64,000 nt of DNA from Runella sp. CRIBMP. GTDB taxonomy: Bacteria; Bacteroidota; Bacteroidia; Cytophagales; Spirosomataceae. Location of the stretch: the NCBI RefSeq assembly GCF_009905605.1, contig NZ_JAAAKZ010000017.1:1-64000 (forward strand). The letters run 5' to 3'. Shown here piece by piece: positions 32,078 to 39,691 of this stretch. Each line of letters starts with the position of its first letter. Positions within the stretch are counted from its first letter, which is position 1. The notes beneath the pieces were generated by a model, which was not told the DNA's origin, did no database searches, and saw only the letters and a program-made list of their open reading frames with translations. The position numbers and the translations under genes are program-made.

Positions 32078-32719
32078 TTAAGCGTCTTTCCACCCAATGG
32101 CGCAGCCAACGGCTTTTGTTTGGGTTACAACTACTGGCTTGCCCATCAGAATATTAGAGACGGCATCTTCCACGTATCTTTTGGTTACTCCAGCGGGATC
32201 TTGATAATTGTCGTCGATGGTTCCGATGTACTGTACCGTAAATTTACCACCATCGTTCCGTAGTATAAACACGTGAGGAGTACGGGTAGCGCCGAATGCT
32301 TTCGCGACCCCCTGTGTTTCGTCTTGTAAATAAGGAAATGTAAACCCTTTTTCCTGAGCGCGTTTTTTCATGTTGTCAAAGGAATTTTCTTCGTAATCGC
32401 CAGCATCGTTAGAGTTGATGGCTAATACCGGAAAGCCCTGCGCGGCGTATTTTTTATCCAGTCCGATGATACGCTCTTCATAGGCCTTCGAAAAAGGACA
32501 ATGATTGCTAGTAAACACCACAATTACGCCTTTTTTATCTTTGTAATTGGATAAAGAAACAACGTTGCCGTCTACGTTTTTAAGCTTGAAGTCGGCCACG
32601 GTTCCACCTATCGGATAGCCCGCAGGCGGGGTTTGAGTGCTCTCTTTTCGGAGTGCAGCGCTGACCAAAGTACCTAAGGTCAGGGTTATGATAAATGGTA
32701 CCCAAAATTTCTTTTTCAT
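32078..32719 (-). CDS. exported thioredoxin-like redoxin family protein
   Basis: A 213-residue protein with an N-terminal signal/anchor (MKKKFWVPFIITLTLGTLVS). The AhpC/TSA-like domain has VVFTSNHCPFSKAYEER (one cysteine, peroxiredoxin-like site ~76), INSNDAGDYEENSFDNM and GATRTPHVFIL. A second cysteine (C206) lies near the C-terminus. Such proteins usually act as peroxidases or thiol reductants in the periplasm; the electron donor is unknown. A TlpA-like gene lies 44 bases upstream on the same strand. Confidence 0.8.
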   Translation of the reverse strand: MKKKFWVPFIITLTLGTLVSAALRKESTQTPPAGYPIGGTVADFKLKNVDGNVVSLSNYKDKKGVIVVFTSNHCPFSKAYEERIIGLDKKYAAQGFPVLAINSNDAGDYEENSFDNMKKRAQEKGFTFPYLQDETQGVAKAFGATRTPHVFILRNDGGKFTVQYIGTIDDNYQDPAGVTKRYVEDAVSNILMGKPVVVTQTKAVGCAIGWKDA

Positions 32720-32763: not shown

Positions 32764-33270
32764 TCACAGAAAATCAGATAGTTCCTTCACCAAACGGTCA
32801 TAGTCTAATTTTTGTTCAAAAAAGACTTTTTTCTTTTTTTGATTGTTGACAATCAACGTTGCCGGAATCGCCCCCGACCATTCGGTGCTGATTTTATCAA
32901 TCCAATTGTTGGCGTCGGGTTCATTCAATAACCAAACTTTTCCAGTGAGTTGATGTTGACTTACAAACGGAATTACCCGCGCCGTTAAATCCTTTGCAAA
33001 ATCCATGCTAACCATGATTACTTTGACATTCCGGTCTTTGTAATTTTTTTGAACCTCTTCAAAGTGCGGCAATTCTGCCACGCAGGGTTTGCACCACGTT
33101 GCCCAGAAGTTGACAATGTATGTTGTATCAGACGACTGTGACAAAATGTTTTGGATTTCTTTCCATTTCACAACCGATACCTCCTGAGCCTGAACGAGTT
33201 GATGCCCAAAAAATAGCCAGGCGCCCAACAATCTAATGCTTTTTATCATTAGCCTATAGTGATTTACCAA
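32764..33270 (-). CDS. TlpA-like periplasmic thioredoxin
   Basis: A 168-residue exported thiol-disulfide protein. The thioredoxin motif is FWATWCKPC with C60 and C63, and the cis-Pro region is SGAIPATLIVN. The signal sequence fits best from M8 (MIKSIRLLGAWLFFGHQLVQ, cleavage after AQ), so the start may be 33249. Likely reduces or oxidises envelope proteins, for example in cytochrome c maturation. Probably co-transcribed with the redoxin downstream. Confidence 0.85.
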   Translation of the reverse strand: MVNHYRLMIKSIRLLGAWLFFGHQLVQAQEVSVVKWKEIQNILSQSSDTTYIVNFWATWCKPCVAELPHFEEVQKNYKDRNVKVIMVSMDFAKDLTARVIPFVSQHQLTGKVWLLNEPDANNWIDKISTEWSGAIPATLIVNNQKKKKVFFEQKLDYDRLVKELSDFL

Positions 33271-34973: not shown

Positions 34974-35387
34974 TTAAAAGGCGTACAAAACAAACCCCGC
35001 CATTGTCATCAGAAAGTAAGGTACTAATGCCGCTGCTCCTGCATAATCCTGTGCTACTCGTTGTCCAAAAAACAAACATACCAACGATAACCCTCCTAAG
35101 CCCATGCCCGTAGCTGCAACACTGTTGCCCGCGTCGTGTCCAAGTAGCAGTAAAAGTAAGCCAACCAATGAGGTGACACCCGCCGATGTTTCGAGCAGGG
35201 TAATGACGGGCATCAGTAAACCAACGGTAGAAGCAAGGGGCGATTTTTTGAAATGGTCTTTAAAATAATCCAGATTTCCTTGATAATGAAAGACTTTGTC
35301 CAAGCCTGACTGGGTGAATAGAATTCCGTTAAACGCCGCAAAAAAGAGTTTAGAAAGTAGTAATACAGAAAATCCAAAAAGTTCCAT
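34974..35387 (-). CDS. DoxX-like four-helix membrane protein
   Basis: A 137-residue protein with four hydrophobic segments. Helix 1 ends NGILFTQSGLDKVFHYQGNL, followed by DHFKKSPLAS, which is DoxX/SURF4-like. The family includes quinol oxidase subunits and redox-linked membrane proteins; this one's role is unknown. Divergent from the His-rich cassette, sharing a ~118-base promoter region. Confidence 0.6.
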   Translation of the reverse strand: MELFGFSVLLLSKLFFAAFNGILFTQSGLDKVFHYQGNLDYFKDHFKKSPLASTVGLLMPVITLLETSAGVTSLVGLLLLLLGHDAGNSVAATGMGLGGLSLVCLFFGQRVAQDYAGAAALVPYFLMTMAGFVLYAF

Positions 35388-35505
35388 AGAAATTAATGTT
35401 GTAAGGGTGAGACGCGTGTAAATTTCGCGGTTTTTGGCAATTATTTTGTCGATTTAAACTTTTTATCAAATAACGTAGTTAAATTTACGAAATAACACCA
35501 TCTCC

Positions 35506-35886
35506 ATGCTCTTCAGTCAGCGCATACGAAAAACAATCGCCAATGGCATCTTGGTGCTTTTTGCCCTGATGCTCCTGAATGGCATTGTATTCCGGCACGC
35601 GCACAAACTGTCGAGCGGGAAAATAATTACCCACGCCCACCCTTACAAACCGTCCAATCCTAATACTCCTTTTCAGCCCAACGATCACACCAGCAATGAG
35701 ATTTTTTTGCTGGAGACGGTCACCAATGCGGTGTTTGTGGGATTGACCTTAACGGTAGCTTTGGCAAGCGTCAAAATTGGTCAGATTGTTTTTTCCCAAA
35801 ATCATTCCTTCTACTTATTAACGGCTTATCGTAAGCCATTCTTTGGCAATTTCTCTCATCGAGGCCCGCCTGCTCATCAGTGTTAA
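35506..35886 (+). CDS. His-rich small membrane protein of a TonB receptor cassette
   Basis: A 126-residue protein I do not recognise as a named family. One hydrophobic segment (~11-29) is followed by a histidine-rich loop (HAH at 31-33, HAHP at 43-46, H61), a second segment (~76-96), and an RGPP motif near the C-terminus with terminal C126. The loop looks able to bind a transition metal (inference). It lies 94 bases before a TonB receptor; an inverted repeat TGCAATA/TATTGCA fills that gap. Comparable small proteins with a C-terminal RGPP may accompany TonB receptors elsewhere. Confidence 0.65.
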   Translation: MLFSQRIRKTIANGILVLFALMLLNGIVFRHAHKLSSGKIITHAHPYKPSNPNTPFQPNDHTSNEIFLLETVTNAVFVGLTLTVALASVKIGQIVFSQNHSFYLLTAYRKPFFGNFSHRGPPAHQC

Positions 35887-35923
35887 TAATTTCATTTCTT
35901 TAATGGATTTCCATGTCAAAACC

Positions 35924-35954
35924 TGCAATATGGGCTTGATGTGAATGTATTGCA
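35924..35954. promoter_or_regulatory. inverted repeat TGCAATA...TATTGCA before the TonB receptor
   Basis: A perfect 7-bp inverted repeat with a 17-base spacer, ending 27 bases before the TonB receptor ATG. An operator or a leader hairpin is possible. Confidence 0.4.
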
Positions 35955-35980
35955 TCATTATTTATTTACACTGATTCTCA

Positions 35981-38275
35981 ATGAATAAACTATATGTATT
36001 GCTGGCATTTTTGCTGGTACAACTTTCTACGTATGCCCAAACAGGAAGTATAAGGGGTACGGTGACCGTAAAAGGAAAACCGCTTGAGTTTGCTACGGCA
36101 GCCCTCAAGGGTACACAATATGGTACTACCACCAATGAATTAGGGGTTTTTGAACTTAAAAATGTAAAGTACGGAACGTATCAGTTGGTTATATCGTCTA
36201 TCGGATACCGCAACATCACCAAGTCGGTGACGATTTCGGAAGCGAAGTTTTTTCAGGAGCTTACTCTTCAAACCGAAGAATTGGAAAATTCGCTCAGTGA
36301 GGTGGTGGTTACAGGGACCATGAAAGAAGTATCAAAGCTAGACAGTCCTGTTCCCGTTGAAATTTACACCCCTGTTTTTTTTAAGCGAAACCCAGTGCCA
36401 AACCTCTTTGAATCACTGCAAAACATCAACGGTATTCGCCCCCAGCTAAACTGTAATGTTTGCAACACTGGCGACATTCACATCAATGGCTTGGAAGGCC
36501 CTTACACCATGATTATGATTGACGGAATGCCCATCGTTTCGGGCTTGTCGACGGTGTATGGTTTGAGCGGAATTCCGAGTGCGCTTATTGAGCGGGTAGA
36601 AATCGTAAAAGGCCCTGCATCAACGCTGTATGGCTCCGAAGCGGTAGGTGGTTTGATAAATGTTATTACTAAAAAACCATCTTCTGCTCCTTTGGTGTCG
36701 GCTGATGTAATGGGAACTTCATGGTCTGAGTTTAATACTGATTTGGGGGTTAAATACCGAGTAGGTGAAAAAGTTCAATCATTGTTTGGTCTAAACTACT
36801 TTAATTTTCAGCAACCAACCGATAAAAACGGCGACGGATTTACGGATATTACCCTTCAAAACCGTATTTCATTATTCAATAAATTTAGTGTTGAACGTAA
36901 AGATAATCGTTTGTTTACGGTAGGTGCCCGCTACGTGTACGAAGACCGTTGGGGAGGTCAAACTCAATGGACCCCCAAATACCGAGGAAGTAATGAAGTA
37001 TACGGTGAAACGATTCAAACCAAACGATGGGAGGTGATAGGAGCGTATCAATTGCCTATCAAAGAGAAAATCACGTTTCAATTTTCGGCCAACGGCCACA
37101 ATCAGGATTCATATTACGGCACGACTCCCTTTAACGCGCTGCAAACGATTGCTTTCGGACAGTTGACGTGGGATAAGAAAGCGGGAGAAAATCACGATTT
37201 GCTAATTGGAACGGCCCTTCGCTACACACATTACGACGATAATACCCCTGCCACTGCTATTGATGGTCGGAATGCGCCTTCTGTTGTGAAACTACCTGGA
37301 ATATTTGCTCAAGATGAAATTTCACTGAATGCCAATAACAAATTGTTGTTGGGACTTCGCTATGACTACAACTCCATTCACGGAAGTATTCTGACGCCCC
37401 GTTTAAACTACAAATGGACCTCCACGGACAAGCGAAATGTATTGCGGGCGAGTTTTGGCAATGGCTACCGCGTAGCCAACGTATTTACCGAAGACCACGC
37501 TGCCCTGACAGGAGCGCGGCAGGTGGTATTTACGGAAGAATTGAAGCCCGAACGCTCGTGGAACGGTAACGTGAATTACGTTCGCAAATTCTTCCTGACA
37601 AACGGAAGCTTTATTGGCTTGGACGCCACGGCCTTTTATACTTATTTCAACAATCGTATTATTCCCGACTACTTAACCGACCCCAACAAAATCATTTACA
37701 GCAATTTAGCGGGTAACGCCGTGTCGCGCGGGATTTCGCTAAATGTGGATTTTTCTTTTGCTAACGGCCTGAAAGCCATGGCGGGCGCTACGGCTATGGA
37801 TGTATTCCAACGAGAGGATGACGGAAGTGGGGAGTTGGTAAAAATGACGCAATTGCTGACGGAGAAATTTACGGGTGTGTGGTCTGTTTCGTACTCTTTC
37901 CAGCGCATCGGTTTGTCGATTGATTATACTGGAAATCTCTATGGCCCGATGAAATTACCCGTCTTAGGGCCGATGGACCCGCGCCCAGCGTATTCTCCTT
38001 GGTGGAGCTTACAGAATATTCAAGTGACCAAGAAATTTAACAACGGGCTAGAAATTTATGGAGGTGTAAAAAATCTGCTGAACTTTACCCCGCTGCGCGA
38101 TGCCATTGCCCGGGCTTTTGACCCTTTTGATAAACAGGTGACTTTTGGTGCCGACGGGCAGGTGATTCCGACGCCCAATAACCCCAATGCGTTAACGTTT
38201 GACCCCACGTACGTATATGCACCCAACCAAGGCATTCGTACATTTTTGGGAATTAGATATAATTTATTCAAATGA
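35981..38275 (+). CDS. TonB-dependent receptor with carboxypeptidase-regulatory N-domain
   Basis: A 764-residue outer-membrane importer. Signal peptide 1-20 (LSTYAQ), a CarboxypepD_reg domain (22-~105, GSIRGTVTVKGKPLEFATA), then a plug with LSEVVVTGTMKE (TonB-box-like) and IERVEIVKGPASTLYGSEAV. The beta-barrel fills ~230-764 and ends in a C-terminal YNLFK. The plug holds C158 and C161 in NCNVCNTGDIHING, a CxxC that is unusual in this family. The stop overlaps the thioredoxin start by 4 bases, implying coupled translation. The substrate is unknown; a metal or metal complex is inferred from the neighbours. Confidence 0.9.
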   Translation: MNKLYVLLAFLLVQLSTYAQTGSIRGTVTVKGKPLEFATAALKGTQYGTTTNELGVFELKNVKYGTYQLVISSIGYRNITKSVTISEAKFFQELTLQTEELENSLSEVVVTGTMKEVSKLDSPVPVEIYTPVFFKRNPVPNLFESLQNINGIRPQLNCNVCNTGDIHINGLEGPYTMIMIDGMPIVSGLSTVYGLSGIPSALIERVEIVKGPASTLYGSEAVGGLINVITKKPSSAPLVSADVMGTSWSEFNTDLGVKYRVGEKVQSLFGLNYFNFQQPTDKNGDGFTDITLQNRISLFNKFSVERKDNRLFTVGARYVYEDRWGGQTQWTPKYRGSNEVYGETIQTKRWEVIGAYQLPIKEKITFQFSANGHNQDSYYGTTPFNALQTIAFGQLTWDKKAGENHDLLIGTALRYTHYDDNTPATAIDGRNAPSVVKLPGIFAQDEISLNANNKLLLGLRYDYNSIHGSILTPRLNYKWTSTDKRNVLRASFGNGYRVANVFTEDHAALTGARQVVFTEELKPERSWNGNVNYVRKFFLTNGSFIGLDATAFYTYFNNRIIPDYLTDPNKIIYSNLAGNAVSRGISLNVDFSFANGLKAMAGATAMDVFQREDDGSGELVKMTQLLTEKFTGVWSVSYSFQRIGLSIDYTGNLYGPMKLPVLGPMDPRPAYSPWWSLQNIQVTKKFNNGLEIYGGVKNLLNFTPLRDAIARAFDPFDKQVTFGADGQVIPTPNNPNALTFDPTYVYAPNQGIRTFLGIRYNLFK

Positions 38276-38736
38276 AAAAAGGCATTCTCATCTTGATTTT
38301 CGCTTGGTTTGGGCTTTATACCACTCAGGTAGAAGCCCAAACCCTGCAATGGACGTCATTTGAGAATCTAAATGACAGCCTGCGGAAAGAGCGCCGTCCT
38401 TTGCTGATTTTTATCCATACAGATTGGTGTAAGTATTGCAAAATGATGGAGTTGAAAACATTTACCGAACCCGAGCTTGTGAAGGTGTTAAACGCTCAAT
38501 TTTACTGTTTAGACCTTAATGCCGAAGATACCCGTACGATTCTGTTTTTAAATAAAAAGTATAAATTTAAACCCACGGGCGTCAATACTGGCGTGCATGA
38601 ATTGGCAGAACTACTCGGAACCGACAAAGGCCGGTTAACGTATCCTACGACGGTTTTCTTTGATCAACATCTGCAATTGCAAAATAGAATGGTAGGAGCC
38701 CTGGAAGCCAAACAGTTGCAGCAGCTTTTTGAATGA
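38272..38736 (+). CDS. exported thioredoxin-fold protein of the TonB cassette
   Basis: A 154-residue protein with a signal peptide (cleavage after VEAQ) and a CxxC active site, C53/C56 in HTDWCKYCKMMELKTF. A cis-Pro follows in LTYPTTVFFD. The WCKYC motif resembles DUF255/thioredoxin_7 proteins. The ATG overlaps the stop of the TonB receptor, so the two are made together. It may act on the CxxC in the receptor plug or on a metal-binding partner (inference). Confidence 0.8.
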   Translation: MKKGILILIFAWFGLYTTQVEAQTLQWTSFENLNDSLRKERRPLLIFIHTDWCKYCKMMELKTFTEPELVKVLNAQFYCLDLNAEDTRTILFLNKKYKFKPTGVNTGVHELAELLGTDKGRLTYPTTVFFDQHLQLQNRMVGALEAKQLQQLFE

Positions 38737-39350: not shown

Positions 39351-39379
39351 TGCTGCAAACCAAAACCAACAAAAACACT

Positions 39380-39691
39380 ATGGCTATTGCAAAGCAATTT
39401 TTGAAAAGCAAACCTGTCTGCAAAGTAACGTTCTCTCTGTCTGCTGATGTAGTGGCAGATGCTAAAGATGTAGCAGTAGTAGGCGAGTTTAATGACTGGG
39501 CTGCCGAAGCCGCTACTAAATTGAAGAAACAGAAAGATGGTTCATATAAAGCAACGCTCGAATTGGAAGCCGGAAAAGAATATGCTTTCCGTTATTTAAT
39601 CGACGGCGCTACCTGGACCAACGACGAAGCCGCTGATAAATATATCCCAAGCGGAGTATCTTACGAAGAGAACTCAGTAATCGTTCTGTAA
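39380..39691 (+). CDS. stand-alone CBM48 (glycogen-binding) protein
   Basis: A 103-residue protein made of one early-set/AMPK-type carbohydrate-binding domain: AVVGEFNDWAAEAATKLKK, DGSYKATLELEAGKEYAFRY and LIDGATWTNDEAADKY. In larger enzymes this module binds glycogen; here it stands alone, as in many Bacteroidota. The ATG at 39380 was chosen because a frame extension to 39329 would cross the consensus promoter. Confidence 0.85.
   Translation: MAIAKQFLKSKPVCKVTFSLSADVVADAKDVAVVGEFNDWAAEAATKLKKQKDGSYKATLELEAGKEYAFRYLIDGATWTNDEAADKYIPSGVSYEENSVIVL

Follow-up and report, generated by a model that had tools for sequence, protein, structure and literature searches.

A TonB-dependent receptor with a cysteine pair in its plug, a histidine-rich membrane protein and a thioredoxin-fold protein: a candidate manganese uptake cassette of Bacteroidota

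The window analysed here is a stretch of 64,000 nucleotides from Runella sp. CRIBMP (contig NZ_JAAAKZ010000017.1, positions 1 to 64,000); the genome of this Runella-like bacterium measures 7.13 Mb, and its best named match in the genome scan was Runella aurantiaca (98% for the receptor). The window carries a cassette of three genes, for a histidine-rich membrane protein (HIS), a TonB-dependent receptor with a CNVC motif in its plug, and a thioredoxin-fold protein (TRX). The HIS-receptor-TRX set is a real, recurrent system, and the receptor belongs to a family that is widespread and single-copy in Bacteroidota. With roughly even confidence we read the cassette as a system that imports a divalent metal, as ion or chelate, across the outer membrane, with Mn(II) the most likely substrate; it would consist of a CxxC-plug receptor, a TRX reductase and a HIS metal carrier. 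Four regularities established by sequence comparison carry this reading: the conservation of the plug cysteine pair, and the associations of the receptor with TRX, of HIS with TonB receptors, and of a palindromic operator with a metal regulator. The features of the cassette are as follows.

35388..35505, + strand: intergenic region 5' of the cassette, without a TTAG-N6-CTAA box, one mismatch allowed.
35506..35886, + strand: HIS, a His-rich two-helix membrane protein of 126 aa; HAH at residues 31-33, HAHP at 43-46, RGPP at 119-122.
35587..35643, + strand: HIS residues 28-46, a predicted beta-hairpin with H31, H33, H43 and H45; candidate four-His metal site.
35981..38275, + strand: TonB-dependent receptor of the CNVC-plug type, 764 aa; CarboxypepD_reg-like domain, plug and beta-barrel.
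36452..36463, + strand: codons of plug Cys158-Asn-Val-Cys161; both cysteines kept in 241/241 receptor loci.
38272..38736, + strand: TRX, a thioredoxin-fold protein of 154 aa; WCKYC, N-terminal export-type sequence.

Relatives of the cassette were gathered as 242 loci, 80 from a genome scan with cysteine-codon patterns and 162 from later searches; because the cysteines were part of the first scan patterns, the scan was redone with a whole-protein receptor profile, whose source sequences were themselves CxxC receptors and whose cut-off was E 1e-120. One locus (L236, plug CAVC) was excluded from all counts, its receptor open reading frame (ORF) having been lost in ORF picking; 225 of the 241 others are distinct over their last 400 residues, and Runella is over-represented. 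At 1e-120 or better the profile matched in 70 of 194 genomes of the order, 86 of 395 of the phylum and 82 of 150 of the family, with one copy each; 1 of the 70 order places (G106, internal stops), 11 of the 86 phylum places and 47 of the 82 family places were not fetched.

The receptor matches Pfam PF07715 (plug; 73.1 bits, cut-off 23.9) and PF00593 (barrel; 103.8 bits, cut-off 27), and the CxxC (C158/C161) that the original prediction saw in the plug indeed falls within the Plug match (residues 119-224). Both cysteines are present in all 241 receptor loci, including 161/161 from the whole-protein profile searches, and also in members scoring about 500-700 bits (best about 1440). A protein search gave 7998 scored relatives; the best 120 of these, at 63-100% identity, all have the plug C-x-x-C (118 by pattern, two by reading). 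As a control, 20 regions around other TonB receptors of this Runella genome were inspected, 16 of which yielded a profile-matching ORF: none of the 16 has a CxxC within the plug or ahead of it, and none has a WCxxC protein in the fetched stretch. The conservation of the plug cysteines is more than chance. When the receptor is aligned by profile to Cir and further receptors of known structure, the pair precedes the conserved I-x-G strand, in a plug loop which we take to be the outward-facing apex in those structures. Against NCBIfam NF049945 the receptor scores 52.8 of 825 bits, far under the cut-off. In one locus (L123, G239:C3) an in-frame TAA stands inside the receptor match, which may reflect gene decay or faulty assembly.

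The third gene follows the receptor without a gap: the stop codon of the receptor overlaps the start of TRX by ATGA, as the original prediction had it, and the thioredoxin assignment is borne out by PF13899 (Thioredoxin_7, 40.0 bits) and PF13098 (Thioredoxin_2, 39.8 bits; cut-offs 27), by Pfam Thioredox_DsbH above its cut-off, and by NCBIfam DsbD and DsbH below theirs. Judged by eye from its N-terminal sequence, TRX is putatively exported. An alignment of 20 TRX sequences has C53, C56 and P125 invariant, with active sites WCxYC or WCxFC. A TRX gene lies downstream on the same strand in 86/241 receptor loci (58/160 of the profile-found loci with enough flank), and 25 of these 86 copies overlap the receptor in the ATGA manner. 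At 1e-15 the TRX profile matches in 125 of the 194 order genomes (many thioredoxins); a threshold of at least 150 bits leaves 18 places in these genomes, 16 of them adjoining a receptor of the cassette's kind. Eleven of the 16 stand beside CNVC receptors, three beside CQNC receptors (G188, G097, G044) and two in G185, where the contig ends before the plug, so that both receptor ends there lack a readable plug; the two places without such a neighbour are in G136 and G017. Since 16 of the 18 high-scoring copies adjoin receptors and only 13 of the 70 receptor-bearing order genomes have such a copy, TRX is a specialised but optional partner. The plug pair, for its part, is independent of an adjacent thioredoxin, because the CxxC is found in 241/241 loci and TRX in only 86/241. 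Thus the expected dedicated partnership stands as a recurrent link, and fails as a constant one; the companion expectation, that the plug CxxC would be conserved only where TRX is adjacent, did not hold, the pair being kept with and without it.

The gene before the receptor had been described as a two-helix protein with HAH and HAHP clusters and a C-terminal RGPP; the motifs are present, and the hydrophobic stretches (19-residue windows peaking at starts 10-14 and 66-78) are compatible with two helices. Pfam gives no match to HIS, and NCBIfam none above its cut-off. In a 20-row alignment H31, H43, H45, P46, R119, P121 and P122 occur in every row, and H33, G38, H61, E65 and G120 in at least 90%. 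The AlphaFold2 model has a helix at 2-24, a hairpin at 28-34/40-46 with the four histidines, and helices at 63-95 and 102-113 (mean pLDDT 69.5, pTM 0.30; hairpin block pLDDT 62-79); a fold search with this model matched nothing in the PDB at an E value of 0.001 or lower. The family is defined here by H-x-H ... G ... H-x-H-P ... R[GA]PP and by a place upstream of a TonB receptor; the window HIS has both, and the motif varies in some distant members.

In the order, HIS was found in 15/194 genomes at 18 places, of which 4 are before CNVC receptors, 3 before CQNC-type receptors, 9 before receptors with a cysteine-free plug (S-K-P-x-x-R-G; presumably ZnuD-like) and 2 before none. The phylum search found it in 18/395 genomes, with 19 places listed, 4 of them already counted in the order; 14 of the 15 further places precede CQNC-type receptors, and one (L316) an RND adaptor-like gene. 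A TonB receptor thus stands directly 3' of HIS at 30 of 33 distinct places. As HIS is followed by CNVC, CQNC and cysteine-free receptors alike, its partners span several TonB receptor types, with and without a thiol plug. The proposal of HIS as a metal-linked partner therefore keeps its metal link, which is supported by the genes neighbouring HIS, and loses the restriction to thiol-plug receptors. All three genes occur together in 19/241 CNVC loci, of which the Runella family accounts for 16 and Sphingobacteriaceae for the others (L028, L057, L072); the neighbourhood comparison across Bacteroidota accordingly bears out recurrence of the trio outside the Runella family, at a low frequency. The HIS relatives without a following receptor lie before a c-type cytochrome-like protein (L266:1480-1866, L274:1480-1866) or the RND adaptor-like protein (L316:1492-1869). 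In another locus (L293, G109:C263) HIS is followed by a receptor with a CSNC plug and then by a receptor resembling the cysteine-free type.

Manganese is suggested by the regulatory context of the family. A DtxR/MntR-type gene lies divergently upstream of 74/241 receptors; the domains of a representative are Fe_dep_repress, Fe_dep_repr_C and FeoA. Within -300..+60 of the receptor start, a TTAG-N6-CTAA box was found in 190/210 receptors without HIS: in 72/74 with a divergent regulator (0.84 expected from Markov samples), in 8/10 with the regulator otherwise placed (0.12) and in 110/126 with none adjacent (1.54), against an expectation of about 2.5 over all three groups. Background genes more than 1.5 kb away had the box in -250..+20 in 7/1100 cases, and over the whole Runella genome the exact box has 44 sites against 274 for a reversed control pattern, so that it is not generally enriched. 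Where HIS intervenes between promoter and receptor, the box stands before the receptor in 0/31 loci and before HIS in 12/31; in Larkinella-type relatives it precedes HIS. The Runella genome has a single PF02742 gene (mntR); it is transcribed away from an NRAMP-like gene, and the box lies between the two. At the position where DtxR has the ligand Cys102 and MntR the ligand Glu99 (PMC4805248), all 91 readable regulators have Glu, in E-x-x-E-H spacing (4/95 were without the motif). Taken together, these sequence patterns strongly indicate that an MntR-type repressor controls the family as a whole by way of a TTAG-N6-CTAA operator. Recurrent gene clusters within 4 kb of the receptor include, as judged by representatives, ZIP (19 loci), NRAMP (12) and ABC ATPase (11) genes, and the box lies upstream of 6/12 NRAMP genes. 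Five of the nine loci with HIS and a cysteine-free receptor (L262, L264, L265, L267, L273) have the box just upstream, which suggests a second receptor type in the same regulon. A MerC-family membrane protein is encoded near the receptor in 9 loci (for example L215:3579-3932).

A related system has been described in Stenotrophomonas maltophilia (PMC13217887, May 2026). There a receptor with a CQNC plug (CQNC-TBDR) has a thioredoxin-fold gene, pTFP, directly downstream; the locus lies next to mntR and mntH, has an MntR box and responds to Mn and MntR, its reporter giving a signal only at low Mn combined with low Fe, and it is proposed that pTFP may reduce the plug cysteine pair (PMC13217887). 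The likeness to our cassette lies in the CxxC at the plug centre and in the thioredoxin-fold gene directly 3'; MntR control, with mntR and mntH nearby, is shared with the context of the Bacteroidota family (PMC13217887). The differences are that the window receptor reads CNVC where that paper has the literal CQNC, and is thus a related type and not a member; that the upstream MntR box belonging to CQNC-TBDR is found in most relatives, but not before the window cassette; that TRX has WCKYC against CAPC in pTFP (PMC13217887); that the cassette adds the HIS gene; and that the receptor family is widely spread in Bacteroidota. The idea of a reductase for plug thiols, which the original prediction offered as new, is therefore not new, being already in print for CQNC-TBDR/pTFP (PMC13217887). 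The word stem 'bacteroid' occurs nowhere in the main text of PMC13217887, and the titles and abstract openings found on Bacteroidota or on a plug CxxC include none on the Bacteroidota CNVC branch, its operator or the HIS family.

The CQNC type was compared through its Bacteroidota members and not through the Stenotrophomonas sequence. The CNVC and CQNC plugs align residue by residue and without gaps around the cysteines, 15 CQNC-type rows having them at the same columns; the group so formed is marked by C-x-x-C in the plug ahead of the x-I-N-G strand. For the CQNC type a haem-receptor (HmuR-like) reading was also considered. TRX is directly downstream in 4 (L294, L370, L371, L378) of the 16 HIS-CQNC loci with downstream sequence (L292-L294 and 13 more; L376 ends soon after the receptor). 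In a tree of plug regions 6/10 of the organism's own paralogues were without an anchor, other outgroup rows were long or misaligned and the bootstrap did not settle; a single origin of the CNVC and CQNC types is for these reasons not claimed. A plasmid search for a proteobacterial relative matched 1393 records, all under 60% identity.

Other known systems are more distant. MnoT of Burkholderia thailandensis likewise serves TonB-dependent uptake of Mn across the outer membrane, but works with a secreted Mn-binding protein, TseM (PMC13217887, PMC9334652); it was compared by description only. Selenoprotein TonB receptors of the FCYXU type (NF049945; CxxU in PMC13188914) likewise have a redox-type Cys/Sec pair, but contain selenocysteine and form another family, and the likeness does not establish the same place in the plug (PMC13188914). 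PgMntR of Porphyromonas gingivalis is, like the regulators here, a Bacteroidota DtxR-family protein with FeoA, and binds Mn and a Mn-transporter promoter; it has two FeoA domains, however, and the ligand position that is Glu in our regulators is occupied by Cys108 (PMC4805248). In the main text of the paper on the copper receptor CrtA (PMC12914433), neither 'CXXC' nor 'thioredoxin' occurs.

From these likenesses and contexts we infer the metal and the tasks of the three proteins. In the receptor plug, the reduced Cys158/Cys161 pair would form part of the substrate-binding site; the exported TRX would be an auxiliary reductase that keeps the pair as, or returns it to, the dithiol, most plausibly acting in the periplasm before or during barrel assembly; and the membrane-anchored HIS would present its four-histidine hairpin on the periplasmic side and bind the metal or hand it on. 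A bolder form, which we think unlikely, is a thiol-switched metal gate across Bacteroidota, in which the plug CxxC would cycle between a metal-binding dithiol and a disulfide, set by a dedicated reductase where one is present, with HIS as a membrane-tethered four-histidine receiver.

A number of results weigh against this uptake system, and those that concern its redox step also speak for another account, that the plug CxxC is a permanent structural disulfide (or binds metal in a redox-neutral way) and that TRX is a general periplasmic thiol enzyme which sometimes shares the operon. Most receptors (155/241) keep their CxxC with no TRX downstream, and in 57 of the 70 order genomes that carry the receptor the TRX profile finds nothing at or above 150 bits. 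A weak point is structural: by the alignment, and by the outward position that we assume for the loop, a periplasmic thioredoxin could hardly reach the pair in a folded receptor and would have to act before barrel closure or during plug movement, which makes the redox step awkward; and because residues 151-174 of the receptor model stay under a pLDDT of 50, the geometry of the loop is not readable from it. A general thiol enzyme would, on the other hand, hardly be expected to have its high-scoring copies almost only beside such receptors (16/18) or to overlap them by ATGA in 25/86 downstream copies, nor do the 16 other receptors of the genome have a nearby WCxxC protein; the Thioredox_DsbH match and the weaker DsbD and DsbH matches are moreover to reducing types. 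We regard the structural disulfide as rather unlikely.

The assignment to manganese faces objections of its own, the main one being that the exact box and its one-mismatch forms are missing from 35388-35505, which speaks against transferring that assignment directly to the window cassette. (A degenerate remnant in the window promoter was viewed by eye and is not claimed.) Since the operator is absent upstream of the cassette in most of the Runella branch, control there has probably changed: the branch has probably left MntR-type control or replaced it. Iron, zinc or copper might instead be the substrate, the DtxR-type regulator merely tying uptake to the metal state of the cell. That HIS also precedes cysteine-free receptors (9/18 order places), presumably ZnuD-like and in five of nine loci with the box nearby, fits this; so does the fact that thiol and imidazole groups are apt ligands for Zn, Cu and Fe and that the neighbouring ZIP and ABC transporters are not Mn-specific. 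The box is upstream of only 1/19 ZIP, 0/11 ABC ATPase and 0/9 MerC neighbour genes. Cysteine, further, has been called an unusual Mn(II) ligand (PMC4805248). Against another metal stand the Glu at the MntR ligand position in every readable regulator, NRAMP genes beside the regulator in the Runella genome and near the receptor in 12 loci, and the published Mn response of the CQNC relative (PMC13217887); such a substrate seems to us somewhat less likely than not. That the three genes are neighbours with no common function is very improbable: only 19/241 CNVC loci have the trio, and all but three of these belong to the Runella family, but it recurs in Sphingobacteriaceae, four more loci have it with a CQNC-type receptor, and HIS directly precedes a TonB receptor at 30/33 places.

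Around the cassette the window holds, 5' of it, a small membrane protein without a Pfam match (34974-35387, - strand), DoxX-like by eye; a different DoxX-like protein shares a common box-bearing intergenic region in 12 other loci. Two AhpC-TSA-type thioredoxin-fold proteins lie a few kb away (32078-32719 and 32764-33270, - strand). On the 3' side follow a truncated haemoglobin (PF01152; 38816-39214, + strand) and a small CBM48/AMPK1_CBM-like protein (39377-39691, + strand), relatives of which are found downstream of the receptor in 27 loci.

The passage of manganese across the Gram-negative outer membrane is poorly known. In the present analysis an MntR-type operator is tied to a TonB receptor family that is widespread in Bacteroidota; the conserved cysteines of the receptor plug become a direct target for mutagenesis, and HIS stands out as an undescribed family of histidine-rich partners with a testable metal site. 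The redox step, if true, would be a new way of controlling a TonB receptor and would add a new redox layer over manganese entry.

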